Below are positions 2,501 to 47,781 of a DNA stretch of 64,000 nucleotides, piece after piece. A program made the translations under genes and the position numbers. Origin of the DNA: Pseudobacteriovorax antillogorgiicola (lineage in GTDB: Bacteria; Bdellovibrionota_B; Oligoflexia; Oligoflexales; Oligoflexaceae); NCBI RefSeq assembly GCF_900177345.1, contig NZ_FWZT01000007.1, positions 186,001 through 250,000 of the forward strand. Reading direction: 5' to 3'. Each line of letters starts with the position of its first letter. Within the stretch, counting starts at the first letter, position 1. The notes below the pieces were generated by a model. It had not been told where the DNA came from. It did no database searches and saw nothing but the letters and a program-made list of their open reading frames with translations.

Positions 2501-4021
2501 CTAAAGAGAATAGCTAATCTTCAGTTCGACCGCCTTTTTAGGGTCTAAGCCATTGATAATGACAGCATTGCCATCGAGTCTATACCACTGTCGATCTAAG
2601 ACCTTGCCATTAAGTTCAACTTTAGAGATTAACCGAGGGCTTAGCTTGAGGTTAAAGCTTGGCTCTTCCACATTGGCGTTTTGTACCAAATTCTTGAGTA
2701 GTTTGGCGTAGTCTGGCTCATCACAGATATCAAAGGTCAGTCCTCCTGAATCCTCTGCAAGCTTGTAGTAACTGGCATCAGAGAATGATTCGCCAAGGGA
2801 GCAGTCAGTGGAGTGCCGGGGTGCGAAGGCGTGGAATTTGAGGTTCTTAATTTGATTGTCGATTCTTACTAGCCTACGTAGCGAATTGTATTCTTTGATA
2901 TTGTCTCTTAGCTCTCGATTGCCATTGCCTGGATCATGAGTGTCTGAAATGAAAATCACGTGAACCATGGCATCGCGGCGAAAGAGTTGGTGTCCGGTAT
3001 TTTTTAGGAGCAATTGCTCAAATGCTGTGATACCAGCCTCAGCGTTGGCATCAGAGAGACTTGTCTGTAGAGCTGCTCTGAGACAAAATGTCTCCTGATT
3101 TGCCGTTTTTTGGTAGGGGCGAAACCACTTCTCGCGACAACCATCGAGTCTATAGTTTTCCTGAATCTGAGTATTATTTGGATATAGGTTGCGATAGTTT
3201 TGAATGGCATCAGCATTCACAAAGTCTAGGAAACCTGGCTCTTGACGAAGGTCTAAGCCATGTTTTAACCAGGGGGCCGAGCCATAACTCTTGTGGCGCA
3301 AACCCAAGTCGTCCAGTTGGGCAACCCCAGTAGTCATGACCGCTAGCATACTGTTGTTGGAGAAATTTTTTGGGTCTTTTAAGACCCGAACGAAACCATC
3401 ATAGACTTTGCTGATGAGTCTTCGGGTGGAACTGGAGTTATCAATGACGAATAGGTAATCGACCTTGGGGTCTGGTGTCCCGTACTGGAATGATTCAGCA
3501 AAGGTCTCGTTCAGGCCTTCGAATTTTTTTATGGCATCGCGATAAAATCCATTCCGACAATCGATACGACCCGTAGTTGTTTGCTGGGCGTTTCTAAATG
3601 CAGACGTGATACTAAGGTCTAAGTAATCGGGAAATTGGTTATGGATGATTTCCGCGACAATGTTCACTGTATCTTCTGACCCATCAGGGTTTCGAAACAT
3701 GTCATCGAAGTCTCTGCTTTGGTGCAAATTACCAATGGGTAGCACAAGCTTGCCCTGGGATACCTGATAAGGCTCCAAAGATATGAATCTGAGATCATTA
3801 AACTGCAGTTGTGGATCGCTGCAGATCTTTGTCTTCAGTATCGAAAACGCTGATAAATTAGCTTGTTGTGTTTGTGATTGGTGTGAGTCGTGTTGCGTCG
3901 CTCTCAAGAGGCGATTCACTTGAAATGCCTGGTTCACCATAACAGCCCCCGATATCAAGCCTGCCATGGATAAGGTTAAAAGTGGTGCCGAACCTCTTTG
4001 GTCTGCAAAGATTTTTCTCAT
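2501..4021 (-). CDS. Pilin-like N-terminus plus VWA-like domain protein
   Basis: The reading frame is open further upstream, but the ATG at 4021 has AGGAGG eight bases before it and starts just before a short basic stretch and a hydrophobic segment. The N-terminus carries RGSAPLLTLSMAGLISGAVM, a Gly-Ser-Ala-Pro-Leu leader into a membrane helix that resembles TadE/pseudopilin-type export signals. Around residue 190-200 the sequence YLFVIDNSSS has the DxSxS core of a von Willebrand A metal-binding site, and the following 250 residues fit a VWA fold (VHVIFISDTHD later). The product is probably anchored in the inner membrane or in a pilus-like fibre with the VWA domain outside. The N-terminus resembles that of the Hint protein at 43755-46160. 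Exact role unknown. Confidence 0.7.
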   Translation of the reverse strand: MRKIFADQRGSAPLLTLSMAGLISGAVMVNQAFQVNRLLRATQHDSHQSQTQQANLSAFSILKTKICSDPQLQFNDLRFISLEPYQVSQGKLVLPIGNLHQSRDFDDMFRNPDGSEDTVNIVAEIIHNQFPDYLDLSITSAFRNAQQTTTGRIDCRNGFYRDAIKKFEGLNETFAESFQYGTPDPKVDYLFVIDNSSSTRRLISKVYDGFVRVLKDPKNFSNNSMLAVMTTGVAQLDDLGLRHKSYGSAPWLKHGLDLRQEPGFLDFVNADAIQNYRNLYPNNTQIQENYRLDGCREKWFRPYQKTANQETFCLRAALQTSLSDANAEAGITAFEQLLLKNTGHQLFRRDAMVHVIFISDTHDPGNGNRELRDNIKEYNSLRRLVRIDNQIKNLKFHAFAPRHSTDCSLGESFSDASYYKLAEDSGGLTFDICDEPDYAKLLKNLVQNANVEEPSFNLKLSPRLISKVELNGKVLDRQWYRLDGNAVIINGLDPKKAVELKISYSL

Positions 4022-4316
4022 GCTTGGTCCCTCCTCTGCATAAAGCTTCGACTCCTGAAACAAAAAACTTTGATGGTGTGGTAAGGTCTGCGAGGGGGGA
4101 GGCTGAAGCAGCCTAATATGATTCGGGTTTTGTGTCATCAGGTGAGATTTGAATCAATTTTATTTGGATTGGTAAGAATTCTATTTCAAGGGTCTGCTTT
4201 TGATTTCATCCTGTAAGGCGCAAAATTAACGCTACTTTTCAGGGGGCTGCTTGCACCTGAGGCAACCCTGGACTATGCTAAACGCGACTTGAAATGATGA
4301 GACGAGGTGGAATTCC

Positions 4317-43754: not shown

Positions 43755-46160
43755 TTACTTTAGCATGCCCTTGTTTTGTAGAAAGCGAATGAAGTCTTGG
43801 GACTCAGCTTCGGCTTTGGAAAGTTCCTTAAGTTTTTTGCGGCTCGCCCCCTGGATGAAAAAGTCCCCAGTCGCGAGACCGTTTGCCACGAATGTGTGCT
43901 GATCAAGGCTGACAGTTTGAGAACCGCTGGTTTGTTTTAGCTTAAGGTTCCACACAAGTCGACCGCTTTCAATGGGCAGGCGCTCAATCTTCTGAATCTT
44001 TACTTCGTCGAGAGACTCTGTAATGATATAGTCACCCACCTTCAATTCGATTGCATCTTTGAAGCCGGCACTTGTGGCGAAAGGATGATTATAGGTTGCT
44101 GTGACAGAACGATCACTATAGAAAATCTTGTATAGCTCGCGCTTTTGGTTGCCAACAATGACGCTTTCAACCTCTGCTGGAGCTTGCGTGGAGGGGTTGT
44201 AGACAAATTCACCCTCCTTGAGGTCTTCGATATTTTTAATCCGGCCATCTGCCATCTTTATTTCTGTACCAGCGATAAAACAACCGTTATTGTTACGGCA
44301 AATACGCGATGACGTTTCCCGGCGGCAGTTATTTCGATCCATGATATCGAAGTACTCAAGGTAGAAGCAAACGGTCAAGTCGTTCTTCGTACCGGCGTTG
44401 GCTGGTGCATCCTTATACTCGCATTCGGTTTTCCACTCATAACTCCGCACTCGTCGCTGAAAAACGTTGCTTGTGGATTTTACCATAGTGCACTCACCAG
44501 ATAGACTTCCCTGATTAGACTTATCTTTGTTTTTGTCGTCGTCATCGTCATTTTTCGATTTTGATATAGCTTCGAGCCATTGGCAGTTTGCTTCCTGTTT
44601 ACAGGCTTGCTCGTTATCGTATTTTTTGCATGTGTTTTCAAGTGCAACTGTTTCTGAGCGGATTTCTTCAACTTCGACAACTCCTTCACGAATTCCAGAA
44701 AAATCGTGACAGACATTGTTATCAACTTCAGATTTTTTGCTGTCGGTAAAATCTGAATGACAATCTTGGTCGACCCACTTGGTTCGGTTGTCTTTTATAA
44801 CACGCATTCCTTCATTTGTAGATGCGGTTGGTTTCCAGTCCGAATAGCTAACTAAGGATGCACGTTTCTCATAGTCATCCAAGCCGGCATCAAGAGATAT
44901 TCGACCATCGATATCATTTCGCCTGGGGATGCGATCGGGACCGTAGTAGCTACAATTCTTGTATTGGCTATAATGGTACTCCTGCGTCTCGTAGGGAAAA
45001 CTGATACGGGAACAGAAATCAGGCTCACTGGTTCCTAGTGTCCTTTTACATCCATCTTTTAAGCGATCGCGAATCATTTCATAAGACTCTCCTGGCGGCC
45101 ATGCAAAGGCATTGGCACCCTTTCGTTGGTTGTCGAAAAGAAAACCTTCGAATTCAACCATATTATTGTCGACATGACCAATATTCAGGGTCACTTCACC
45201 ATCTGAATTGGTTTGAACCAAATCCTCTTTGACCATCTTACCTTTGACACCTTGGGGCTTTTTGAATGGATTCTTTCGGCCATCTTTATAAGCTTCATCA
45301 AGAAATTTTTGAAGATCTTCGGGATCATCGGTGGGGTCATTTTCATGCATTTTTTTAACGGTATAGTTTGCGACATTTACAGAAAGAGTCATACTTTCAG
45401 CATACTCAGGATTAGGCATGAGGTGCATCTTGCCATTGGCCTTATACATAACATTGCCATCGGTGTTTCGTAGCGGCTTCATAAAACGACAGTGGTCGAC
45501 GTTGCAGATTTCACCGTTTTCAGAGGAACACAACCGAGATGGATCATTATGTCTGATACGAGCATCCCTGGCTAGTTTAATCGAGCTATCTTCTGGATGC
45601 TCTGTAGTTGCTTTTACTTGAAAGTAAGATTCCGTGGAGTTCTTACCAATAACGTTATTCACATCCGGAGTATCAAGTTTAGCGACAACTTCCACAGTCG
45701 TCGTGATGTCAAACCCTTGAATGCAGTTGGAACTTTCGTTCTTCAAAATGTCAGTGTTATCGCGATCAACAAATACGTCAGAATTTGTAATGTCCGGCTT
45801 TAGGCAGTTTGTAATCTGAAGAGTATTTCCTTTTAGCTCCCAGTTCTTGTGGGTTCCTCCACCTCGAACGCGAGAACCCGTCTTCGTATCGAGGTCCTTA
45901 TTCTTTTCAAAGCCACTCCCGGCCTTGTTTGGTACAATGATACTATTTCCCGCCAGCTGCGAGGTAAGAGCGAGTGCTGCCTCGTTTGCCATTTGCAAAT
46001 AGAACTTGCTAACGGTCCGTTTCTGGGATTTTAAGGACTGTTCCGCAACGAAGTTTGCGATCTTAACGCCACCGACGATGCCTCCAGCTACAACCAATGC
46101 CATCACTAAGGGGGCTGCTCCTGATTCCCCTCTTAGGGACCAAATATTTTTATGCCTCAT
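43755..46160 (-). CDS. Pilin-like, Cys-rich protein with C-terminal Hint domain
   Basis: The 801-residue protein has a pilin/TadE-like N-terminus (RGESGAAPLVMALVVAGGIV) with a membrane helix at about 12-38. The middle (about 180-620) is Cys-rich, with CKKYDNEQACKQEANCQW resembling a PSI-type Cys-x-Trp knot and an Asp-rich linker after it. The last part is a Hint domain starting at Cys627 (NNGCFIAGTEIKMADGRIKN), with a TxxH motif in TATYNHPF and DQHTFVANG. The expected His-Asn end (block G) is missing, so C-terminal splicing is not expected but N-S acyl shift and self-cleavage at Cys627 are possible. It is the third gene of the operon 47781-43755. Confidence 0.78.
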   Translation of the reverse strand: MRHKNIWSLRGESGAAPLVMALVVAGGIVGGVKIANFVAEQSLKSQKRTVSKFYLQMANEAALALTSQLAGNSIIVPNKAGSGFEKNKDLDTKTGSRVRGGGTHKNWELKGNTLQITNCLKPDITNSDVFVDRDNTDILKNESSNCIQGFDITTTVEVVAKLDTPDVNNVIGKNSTESYFQVKATTEHPEDSSIKLARDARIRHNDPSRLCSSENGEICNVDHCRFMKPLRNTDGNVMYKANGKMHLMPNPEYAESMTLSVNVANYTVKKMHENDPTDDPEDLQKFLDEAYKDGRKNPFKKPQGVKGKMVKEDLVQTNSDGEVTLNIGHVDNNMVEFEGFLFDNQRKGANAFAWPPGESYEMIRDRLKDGCKRTLGTSEPDFCSRISFPYETQEYHYSQYKNCSYYGPDRIPRRNDIDGRISLDAGLDDYEKRASLVSYSDWKPTASTNEGMRVIKDNRTKWVDQDCHSDFTDSKKSEVDNNVCHDFSGIREGVVEVEEIRSETVALENTCKKYDNEQACKQEANCQWLEAISKSKNDDDDDKNKDKSNQGSLSGECTMVKSTSNVFQRRVRSYEWKTECEYKDAPANAGTKNDLTVCFYLEYFDIMDRNNCRRETSSRICRNNNGCFIAGTEIKMADGRIKNIEDLKEGEFVYNPSTQAPAEVESVIVGNQKRELYKIFYSDRSVTATYNHPFATSAGFKDAIELKVGDYIITESLDEVKIQKIERLPIESGRLVWNLKLKQTSGSQTVSLDQHTFVANGLATGDFFIQGASRKKLKELSKAEAESQDFIRFLQNKGMLK

Positions 46161-46192
46161 TCTACAACCTCACTCTCATTATTTCTCTAACA

Positions 46193-46960
46193 TCAAGACT
46201 TTGGTTCTAGGTCTGGCTTTAGATACTGAACGTTACCCGTGTTGCTGGGGGGTAAAAGCATCTGGCGTTTGATCCAACGGACTCGTTTTGTCTTATCTTC
46301 GTGCTTGCGATTTTTCTGACTGATGATAGCTGCCCAAATGTAGACTTTGTGAAACCTTGTGTTGTTGTCATAGACAAGGCAGGCAGCTCCTGCGACTGCA
46401 TGCCGAGAAAGTCGCTGACCACGAGTCCTGGGAAACGTGCGGCGCCCCACTCCTTCAATATCGATGACTGCTTCGGTTCTTTGACCAACACCACAGTCAA
46501 CCAAGGACAAAAGGTTCCGACACTCGGGGACGTCAACAACATGCTGATCCAGGTAATCCTGATTCATTACAGGTAAGAATGTCTGTAGCGTATCTGGTGC
46601 GCCTATACACCTTGTGCCGATGCTAAAGATTCTCTGTTTACTGTCGTTGCGATCGAATACGTTCATGGTAGTGCCGATCGTGAAATTCTCAAACTCGTCC
46701 TGAATTTCCCAACGCTCTAGTTTGGGGTCATCAGATGGAGATTCTGGGTCGAACGCGGTGGTATATAGATTTTTGCGGACAACTGTCATCCATTGTAGAA
46801 TTTCATCACGGGAATTGGAGTAGGCTTCTAGCGTCGAGGATGAACTTAGGATGCGAGGAATAAACTTGCCTGCTCCCATAATGATAACTGAAAGTATGGC
46901 AACGCTAATCATCATCTCAATGAGAGAAAAGCCCGAATTTGAACCTATACGCTTCTTCAT
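46193..46960 (-). CDS. Type IV pilin-like (pseudopilin) protein
   Basis: The N-terminus MKKRIGSNSGFSLIEMMISV is a class III prepilin signal with the Gly/Phe cleavage site and Glu+5. The mature chain is about 245 residues, with several Cys and a disordered C-terminus. It resembles PilV/PilW/GspJ-type minor pilins. Its ATG overlaps the stop of the upstream gene by four bases (ATGA). GGAGGGG precedes the start. Confidence 0.85.
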   Translation of the reverse strand: MKKRIGSNSGFSLIEMMISVAILSVIIMGAGKFIPRILSSSSTLEAYSNSRDEILQWMTVVRKNLYTTAFDPESPSDDPKLERWEIQDEFENFTIGTTMNVFDRNDSKQRIFSIGTRCIGAPDTLQTFLPVMNQDYLDQHVVDVPECRNLLSLVDCGVGQRTEAVIDIEGVGRRTFPRTRGQRLSRHAVAGAACLVYDNNTRFHKVYIWAAIISQKNRKHEDKTKRVRWIKRQMLLPPSNTGNVQYLKPDLEPKS

Positions 46961-47781
46961 GGCCCCTCCAAGGTTAAACCCTTGACAGCCTTTGATATAT
47001 AGAGCCTGCCATCACTTTTGCTTAGAGAGTAGCCAAGATTATTTTCCGTCGAAGCTGCTTCTGAAAAGCGGTGTACGGCGTAGACAACTTGAAGTCCGCG
47101 GCCAGAAAACTCGTTCTGCTTATTGCATTCAATAGGAATACCGCGGTTGAAGTCCCAGAAAGTTCCCTTCATTTCAACAATAGCATTTTCAAGTAAGGCA
47201 CACTGATAAAGAGAGTTTCTAGTAGACCGATCTACATTTTGTACGATACTAGGATACTTACAACGCTCGAAGACCTGGAGGATTTTTTTAGCCGGGTTTG
47301 AACTACCTTGTTTTGCTTGTACTTCCGCCCAAAAACTCTCGTGAGATTCAAAAACTTTTGTAGCCTGGATCGTATCGACCTTGTCAGGCTCGTTATACTC
47401 ACTTTCCAGGTCGATGTAGTTGCCGAGGTACATGTAGCTCTGGGCATGAGAACGGGCTTTTCTGATTTCGCGAACAATCTCGAAGAGGTTATTACCTTTA
47501 CACTGCTCGGAAGTCGGGAATTCAGTAATACGCCGCTGCAAGTTTTCCCAAAAAAGTTCAGCTTCGTAGCGTATCATCTGATCTGATTCGTAAACAAGAT
47601 CTGCAGCCTGTGCGACTCGACGAGCCTTCATATTGTTGACAATGCTTTGGGAGCCCCAATAGAAAGACGCTATCAGGAGGACAACGCTGAGCATGGTCTC
47701 TATTAGTGTTGCACCGCCTTCGCTGCGAAGCGAAAGAACATTAGAAGGAGCGGTATGAGTCTTGTCAGTGAACCGTTGCAT
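46957..47781 (-). CDS. Pilin-like (pseudopilin) protein
   Basis: The chosen ATG at 47781 follows GGGAAG; the frame continues to a TTG at 47793. The N-terminal LRSEGGATLIETMLSVVLL is a variant prepilin signal (Gly-Gly-Ala before the hydrophobic helix, Glu at the usual place). The mature part is about 245 residues with several Cys. It is the first gene of the three-gene operon leading to the Hint protein, with overlapping start and stop codons to the next gene. Likely a minor pilin of a type IV pilus-like or type II secretion-like apparatus. Confidence 0.75.
   Translation of the reverse strand: MQRFTDKTHTAPSNVLSLRSEGGATLIETMLSVVLLIASFYWGSQSIVNNMKARRVAQAADLVYESDQMIRYEAELFWENLQRRITEFPTSEQCKGNNLFEIVREIRKARSHAQSYMYLGNYIDLESEYNEPDKVDTIQATKVFESHESFWAEVQAKQGSSNPAKKILQVFERCKYPSIVQNVDRSTRNSLYQCALLENAIVEMKGTFWDFNRGIPIECNKQNEFSGRGLQVVYAVHRFSEAASTENNLGYSLSKSDGRLYISKAVKGLTLEGP

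Follow-up and report, generated by a model that had tools for sequence, protein, structure and literature searches.

What does a C-terminal Hint domain do on a pilin-like surface protein of a bacterium? Processing of the hedgehog type has been described in eukaryotes, and the Hint domains of bacteria are known mostly from inteins and toxins. The question is raised by a locus in the window, the 64,000-nucleotide stretch of the Pseudobacteriovorax antillogorgiicola genome analysed here. At positions 43755–47781 on the minus strand, three genes lie head to tail in a tight operon, and the third encodes an 801-residue protein that ends in such a domain (Table 1). The initial annotation, whose three adjacent open reading frames (801, 255 and 278 residues) were recovered at the same positions, had described three pilin-like N-termini and suggested self-cleavage or thioester attachment of the N-terminal piece. 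Our preferred reading, to which we assign a probability of about 0.55 from the sequence and a predicted model, is that the 801-residue protein is a minor-pilin-like surface protein with a C-terminal hedgehog-like autoprocessing domain, the thioester of which would be resolved externally.

Searched alone, the 801-residue protein gives only sub-threshold matches in Pfam (Intein_splicing 2e-4, Vint 2e-4), and likewise in NCBIfam. A family profile built from 30 Hint domains of this genome and its relatives matches solved structures of the BIL domain (2lwy, 7.9e-12), of BIL2 (6tmm/6y75, about 4e-12) and of several inteins. The identity of the domain is settled because this profile is significant where the single-protein searches stay below threshold. 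The AlphaFold model of residues 596–801 has a mean predicted local distance difference test (pLDDT) score of 85, with a core near 95, and Foldseek searches with the Hint model retrieve 6y75 (1.3e-11), 2lwy (4.7e-11), inteins, Vint 8r2c (8e-6) and hedgehog 1at0 (2e-5). The HINT fold with its blocks A and B is genuine in this protein. The domain start at Cys627, the TxxH motif (Thr689-Tyr-Asn-His692) and the missing C-terminal His-Asn, all read from the letters by the initial annotation, are borne out, and the profile search that it had put forward as a check gives the matches to BIL and BIL2. In the profile alignment with 6tmm, Asn143 stands three residues past ANGVL and Asp766 three residues past ANGLA; the assignment of Asn143 in 6tmm/6y75 draws on C1A-N143A in the entry title. 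Because Asp766 aligns with Asn143, we conclude that the His-Asn of inteins has been swapped for Gly765-Asp766.

The residues that remain are strongly conserved. A census was taken of 75 different Hint domains from three phyla, with rows containing a gap set aside. The first cysteine (Cys1, which is Cys627 in the window protein) is kept in 70/70, the TxxH histidine in 74/74 and the aspartate at position 766 in 72 of 73 domains, while Thr689, Gly765 and Gln770 are nearly invariant and Asn655-Pro656 is also conserved. The position after Asp766 is leucine in 57/73 and serine in 2/73, and never cysteine or threonine. The set used for intein splicing, a terminal asparagine, a penultimate histidine and a +1 Cys/Ser/Thr, is absent from the 801-residue protein and from the census. 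His755, considered as an essential residue, was rejected, as it varies in the other two phyla. Since Cys1 and TxxH are kept and the asparagine and +1 Cys/Thr are gone, N-terminal self-cleavage or ligation is predicted, and not splicing. This is the signature of a Hint domain that would be capable of the first acyl shift, would not splice and, with a tail of 9–43 residues past the domain across the family, carries no C-terminal cargo. The suggestion of self-cleavage or thioester attachment therefore stands as far as the residues go, with those of the first step conserved in three phyla and those of splicing absent; the reaction itself is a prediction from sequence.

Selection on the domain agrees with this conservation. 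In the closest pair, the nonsynonymous (dN) and synonymous (dS) rates of the Hint domain are 0.021 and 0.378 (dN/dS about 0.06), compared with 0.113 and 0.386 (about 0.29) for the body, and the Hint domain is better conserved than the body in 6/6 pairs. Because it evolves far slower than the body, and is in fact the best-conserved part of the protein, the domain is not the inactive remnant that would have refuted the reading of the initial annotation. The cysteines point to the state of the nucleophile. The body is Cys-rich, as first described, with 18 cysteines ahead of Cys627. In the Oligoflexia members tallied, Cys1 is the sole cysteine of the Hint domain, and the number of cysteines between the membrane segment and the Hint domain is even in 32/37 members (nominal p=4e-6, on related and thus non-independent sequences). 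The sole Hint cysteine and the even body count make Cys1 an unpaired thiol in an oxidising compartment, so that Cys627 is probably a free reactive thiol among disulfides. A redox trap of Cys627 by Cys612, which is invariant in a 35-member alignment, was dropped as a candidate: the short lipoprotein members have a second cysteine about 85–95 residues upstream of Cys612 as a possible alternative partner, and the body count is even.

These features suggest the following course of events. The 801-residue protein would be exported and inserted via its pilin-like segment, and with the two upstream pilins it would probably form a tip-type complex. The Hint domain would fold after export and convert the Gly626-Cys627 bond, the residues of which are conserved, to a thioester. 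Because the residues for splicing and for asparagine cyclisation are missing, an outside nucleophile would resolve this thioester, either water or a group on an acceptor, such as an amine; Asp766, in the old asparagine place, may serve as a general base helping water. The pilin and its Cys-rich body would gain a new C-terminus at Gly626, and a 175-residue Hint fragment would be freed. In many relatives a cognate membrane partner, described below, is probably the acceptor, activator or docking site, and the window copy would either do without such a partner or draw on one in trans, such as the orphan encoded in this genome. A further step, in which the pilus-borne thioester passes the body to the partner, the envelope or a target molecule and so attaches it covalently at the surface, is a doubtful extension to which we give little credence.

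The pilin character is firmest in the genes upstream. The product of gene 2 matches N_methyl at 2.1e-7 (30.6 bits against a cut-off of 21.2) and so carries the N_methyl/GFxxxE signature; it also matches TIGR02532 (7.9e-7) and PRK10557 (3.7e-9), and the closest family is ppdB/PilW-like. The product of gene 1, 278 residues long if a TTG start is used, carries GGATLIETMLSVVLLIA including Glu5, and its profile match is weak. At the N-terminus of the 801-residue protein, a short basic stretch and a glycine precede an uninterrupted, uncharged hydrophobic segment that has no Glu5, and its gene has minor-pilin neighbours; the pilin nature of the protein is deduced from this anatomy and these neighbours. 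Of the three pilin-like N-termini first described, that of the 255-residue protein is thus secure by profile, that of the 278-residue protein probable and that of the Hint protein an anatomical deduction. A prepilin peptidase gene is present. The first two genes share 4 nucleotides, and 32 nucleotides separate gene 2 from gene 3. Promoter-like sites are no more frequent than in shuffled sequences, and terminator-like sites exceed the shuffles by about one standard deviation. No known domain could be matched to body residues 35–600.

Table 1. Features of the Hint locus and of the orphan partner copy; positions are those of the window except where a locus label is given.
Feature	Position	Strand	Evidence
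Gene 3, 801-residue Hint protein, pilin-like N-terminus and Cys-rich body	43755..46160	-	Open reading frame, sequence
Residues 13-34, hydrophobic pilin-like N-terminal segment SGAAPLVMALVVAGGIVGGVKI, without Glu5	46059..46124	-	Hydropathy; no Pfam pilin match
Residues 627-770, HINT domain of GD...Q type	43851..44282	-	Family profile, AlphaFold/Foldseek, residue census
Cys627, predicted N-S acyl shift nucleophile, after Gly626	44280..44282	-	Cys in 70/70
Thr689-Tyr-Asn-His692, block B TxxH	44085..44096	-	His 74/74; Thr or Ser in nearly all
Gly765-Asp766 replacing His-Asn; no +1 Cys/Ser/Thr (Phe767)	43863..43868	-	Asp 72/73; equivalent to Asn143 of BIL2 6tmm
Residues 771-801, short C-terminal helical tail	43758..43850	-	AlphaFold model; family tails 9-43 residues
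Gene 2, 255 residues, type IV minor pilin-like, PilW/PpdB-like, GFSLIE motif	46193..46960	-	N_methyl, TIGR02532, PRK10557
Gene 1, minor-pilin-like, PilV/PpdA-like position	46957..47781	-	ATG at 47781; PRK10506 E=0.0013
Orphan partner copy	L183 2988-3857 (G000:C4)		Not beside a pilin-like Hint gene

The association with pilins extends to other loci. Genes with a Glu5 pilin motif lie at most three genes from the Hint gene in 17/36 loci, compared with 0/218 of the other genes in the same stretches. The three-gene set, the recurrence of which the initial annotation had proposed as a check, was compared with other loci: homologues of both window pilins were found at L048, the nearest relative of the window locus, but in the order pilin-Hint-pilin (gene 1, E=3e-15; gene 2, E=1.5e-7), and one of the two, that of gene 1, adjoins the Hint gene at L049 (E=6e-7). 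Within the Hint-pilin family only L076 and L077 approach the prepilin profile, with near-canonical prepilin N-termini. Elsewhere in the window, at 2501–4138 on the minus strand, a 545-residue protein has a similar pilin-like N-terminus, RGSAPLLTLSMAGLISGAVMVNQ, followed by an apparent von Willebrand factor A (vWA) stretch with a metal ion-dependent adhesion site (MIDAS), VDYLFVIDNSSST; it has no Pfam match and no Hint domain, and may be a further modular pilin of this window.

Many Hint genes are accompanied by a second kind of neighbour. The partner protein, hitherto undescribed, is about 270–340 residues long, with a single membrane segment at its N-terminus and four invariant cysteines, and is encoded at 22 Oligoflexia Hint loci. 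In a further phylum its gene directly follows the Hint gene in 9/9 loci, and in the phylum search 14 of 15 partner-bearing genomes also have a Hint match. Because this 9/9 linkage involves Hint proteins whose N-termini are mostly signal-peptide-like sequences, the partner goes with the Hint domain and not with the pilin part. No Pfam family is matched by more than one partner member, and searches of solved sequences and folds (model pLDDT 85) gave no significant match. Of the six partner copies in this genome, five adjoin Hint genes and the sixth is an orphan (Table 1).

The initial annotation, which had seen one protein, was too narrow in this respect: the Hint domain belongs to a large family with a frequent partner gene and several anchor types. 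The Hint profile finds 14 matches in this 7.28-Mb genome, and in the phylum of the window organism at least one match occurs in 39/58 genomes. Relatives with a name are Oligoflexus, Oligoflexales and Silvanigrella metagenome-assembled genomes. Most of the strong members share the same build, with a pilin-like N-terminal segment, a body and the Hint domain at the very end, and a few are lipoproteins (L063, L067 and L072). The same Hint type occurs in two more phyla, reached via L129 and L127. One of these, probably Myxococcota, in agreement with the published Myxococcus protein MXAN_6253 (PMC2362128), has Hint matches in 74/195 genomes, with genome sizes up to 13.8 Mb; most of its inspected proteins are lipoprotein-like with about 620–660 residues, and some have about 310–330. 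The inspected proteins of this phylum (that of G058 and L164-L174) have a CLAEGT start and a VGDxxxQ end, and a genome carries up to 8 matches. In the other phylum, 13/46 genomes have Hint matches, and the inspected proteins mostly begin with the signal-peptide-like sequences mentioned above. Small secreted proteins of about 270–350 residues form a second and weaker Hint group (L183 5876-6769 and 7511-8338; G000:C2, C3, C10, C24 and C26), some of them with CGC and GDNxWQ motifs. No viral relatives of the family were confirmed. The family is large, well conserved and apparently unstudied, and, judging from the N-termini, pilin anchoring would be one of several modes beside lipoprotein and secreted forms.

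Four other explanations bear on these observations. The Hint domain may not cleave at all and may instead have retained the intein fold as a stable module for docking or ligand binding, kept to bind the partner or a target; the loss of His-Asn and of the +1 nucleophile, the partner tied to Hint in two phyla, the conservation of Gln770 and Asn655-Pro656, for which no catalytic role is known, and a paralogue (L044) that keeps the fold without Cys1 are all consistent with it. However, binding alone would not preserve Cys1, the TxxH histidine and Asp766 at their census frequencies over three phyla, nor would it keep Cys1 the sole cysteine of the domain, and we regard this explanation as unlikely, while giving it more weight than the others. 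That paralogue, encoded in the same genome at L044 5792-7360 (G000:C19), has DSW for GCF and no GD, and appears as a naturally dead Hint domain beside a divergent pilin pair. A degenerate copy of this kind, together with the sub-threshold intein matches of single sequences, would also fit an inactive intein remnant, but purifying selection, the conserved residues and the position of the domain, always C-terminal in surface proteins and never within a housekeeping protein, make this scarcely credible. Equally remote is a polymorphic-toxin PT-HINT that frees a C-terminal toxin: weak PT-HINT matches occur in 17/35 members, but the tail past the Hint domain, only 9–43 residues, is in the window protein too short for a toxin domain, and the asparagine needed for C-terminal release is aspartate and its histidine glycine.

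The N-terminal segment may instead be a mere signal anchor, in which case the protein would be an anchored Hint protein with no pilus role and the pilin neighbours would be incidental. The window protein has no pilin profile match, about half of the loci have no pilin-motif neighbours and some relatives are lipoproteins or secreted proteins. Against this stand the enrichment of pilin-motif genes around the Hint genes, the recurrence of pilin homologues beside the nearest relatives of the window locus and the near-canonical prepilin N-termini of L076 and L077, so that we consider a mere anchor rather improbable. Several observations nevertheless weigh against a pilin-borne, self-processing Hint protein. 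Its N-terminus matches neither N_methyl nor any other pilin profile and does not qualify as that of a class III prepilin. The window locus has no partner gene, this protein being alone among the intact pilin-like copies of the genome in that none was found next to it, and its pairing with an unlinked partner in trans is possible but speculative. The cysteine counts are odd in three related members (L074, L076 and L077), the Myxococcota-like relatives do not have the even pattern, and the relatedness of the tallied sequences tempers the statistic. Loss of Cys1 and the aspartate in L044 was tolerated at least once. Finally, the evidence for cleavage consists of sequence and a predicted model, and no processed form has been seen.

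If autoprocessing by the 801-residue protein is correct, it suggests that these bacteria cleave their surface proteins, or join them chemically, by way of a terminal Hint domain. The family is a multi-copy bacterial one that has kept the chemistry of the first step and lost that of splicing, on several anchors and often with a dedicated membrane partner. What non-splicing Hint domains are for in bacteria can thereby be put directly to the test, with the partner gene as an entry point to the acceptor. A full-text literature search joining "Hint domain" and "pilin" returned no such system, judged by titles and abstracts, and within this scope the earlier statement that no pilin-Hint system has been characterised holds.

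Among known systems, the BIL domains (2lwy; BIL2 6tmm/6y75) are the best matches of the window Hint domain in both sequence and fold, and they give mainly cleaved products (PMC7664689). They differ at the domain end, as the closest solved example keeps its terminal asparagine (Asn143 of 6y75), whereas the window protein has Gly-Asp there. In its predicted mode of action, with an N-terminal product, the family is most similar to hedgehog. The Hog/Hint domain of hedgehog (1at0; fold E=2e-5) shares the C-terminal position after a secreted part, Cys1, TxxH and the absence of a terminal asparagine; in contrast, the family described here is bacterial, has no sterol or adduct recognition region in its short tail and closes with Asp...Gln. 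Vint (PF14623; 8r2c) is the most frequent Pfam match, a weak one, in 33/35 members, and it also lacks canonical C-terminal motifs (PMC2362128), but it occurs in probably intracellular eukaryotic VWA proteins and its fold match is below that of BIL. A further comparison is the divergent secreted bacterial Hint group described by Dassa & Pietrokovski and by Burglin in 2008 (Stigmatella, Myxococcus MXAN_6253, Reinekea, Photorhabdus and others), with a C-terminal Hint domain, signal peptides in some members, two conserved upstream cysteines and divergence from intein, Hog and BIL (PMC2362128). This group probably includes the Myxococcota-like lipoproteins of the present analysis, and the window family is probably related to it; that account describes no mechanism, partner gene or pilin anchor for the group. 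On the pilin side, the modular pilins (PilB and PilC of Streptococcus sanguinis; GspK) carry a module on a small pilin, with a tip location proposed, and the modules named in the available part of that source are mostly of binding (vWA, lectin) and peptidase type, with no Hint among them (PMC8179133). The window protein differs from these in its N-terminus, which has no pilin profile match, and it would add a reactive module to their list. Covalent attachment, if true, would be a bacterial parallel to the ligation step of hedgehog or to sortase, fixing or displaying the body.

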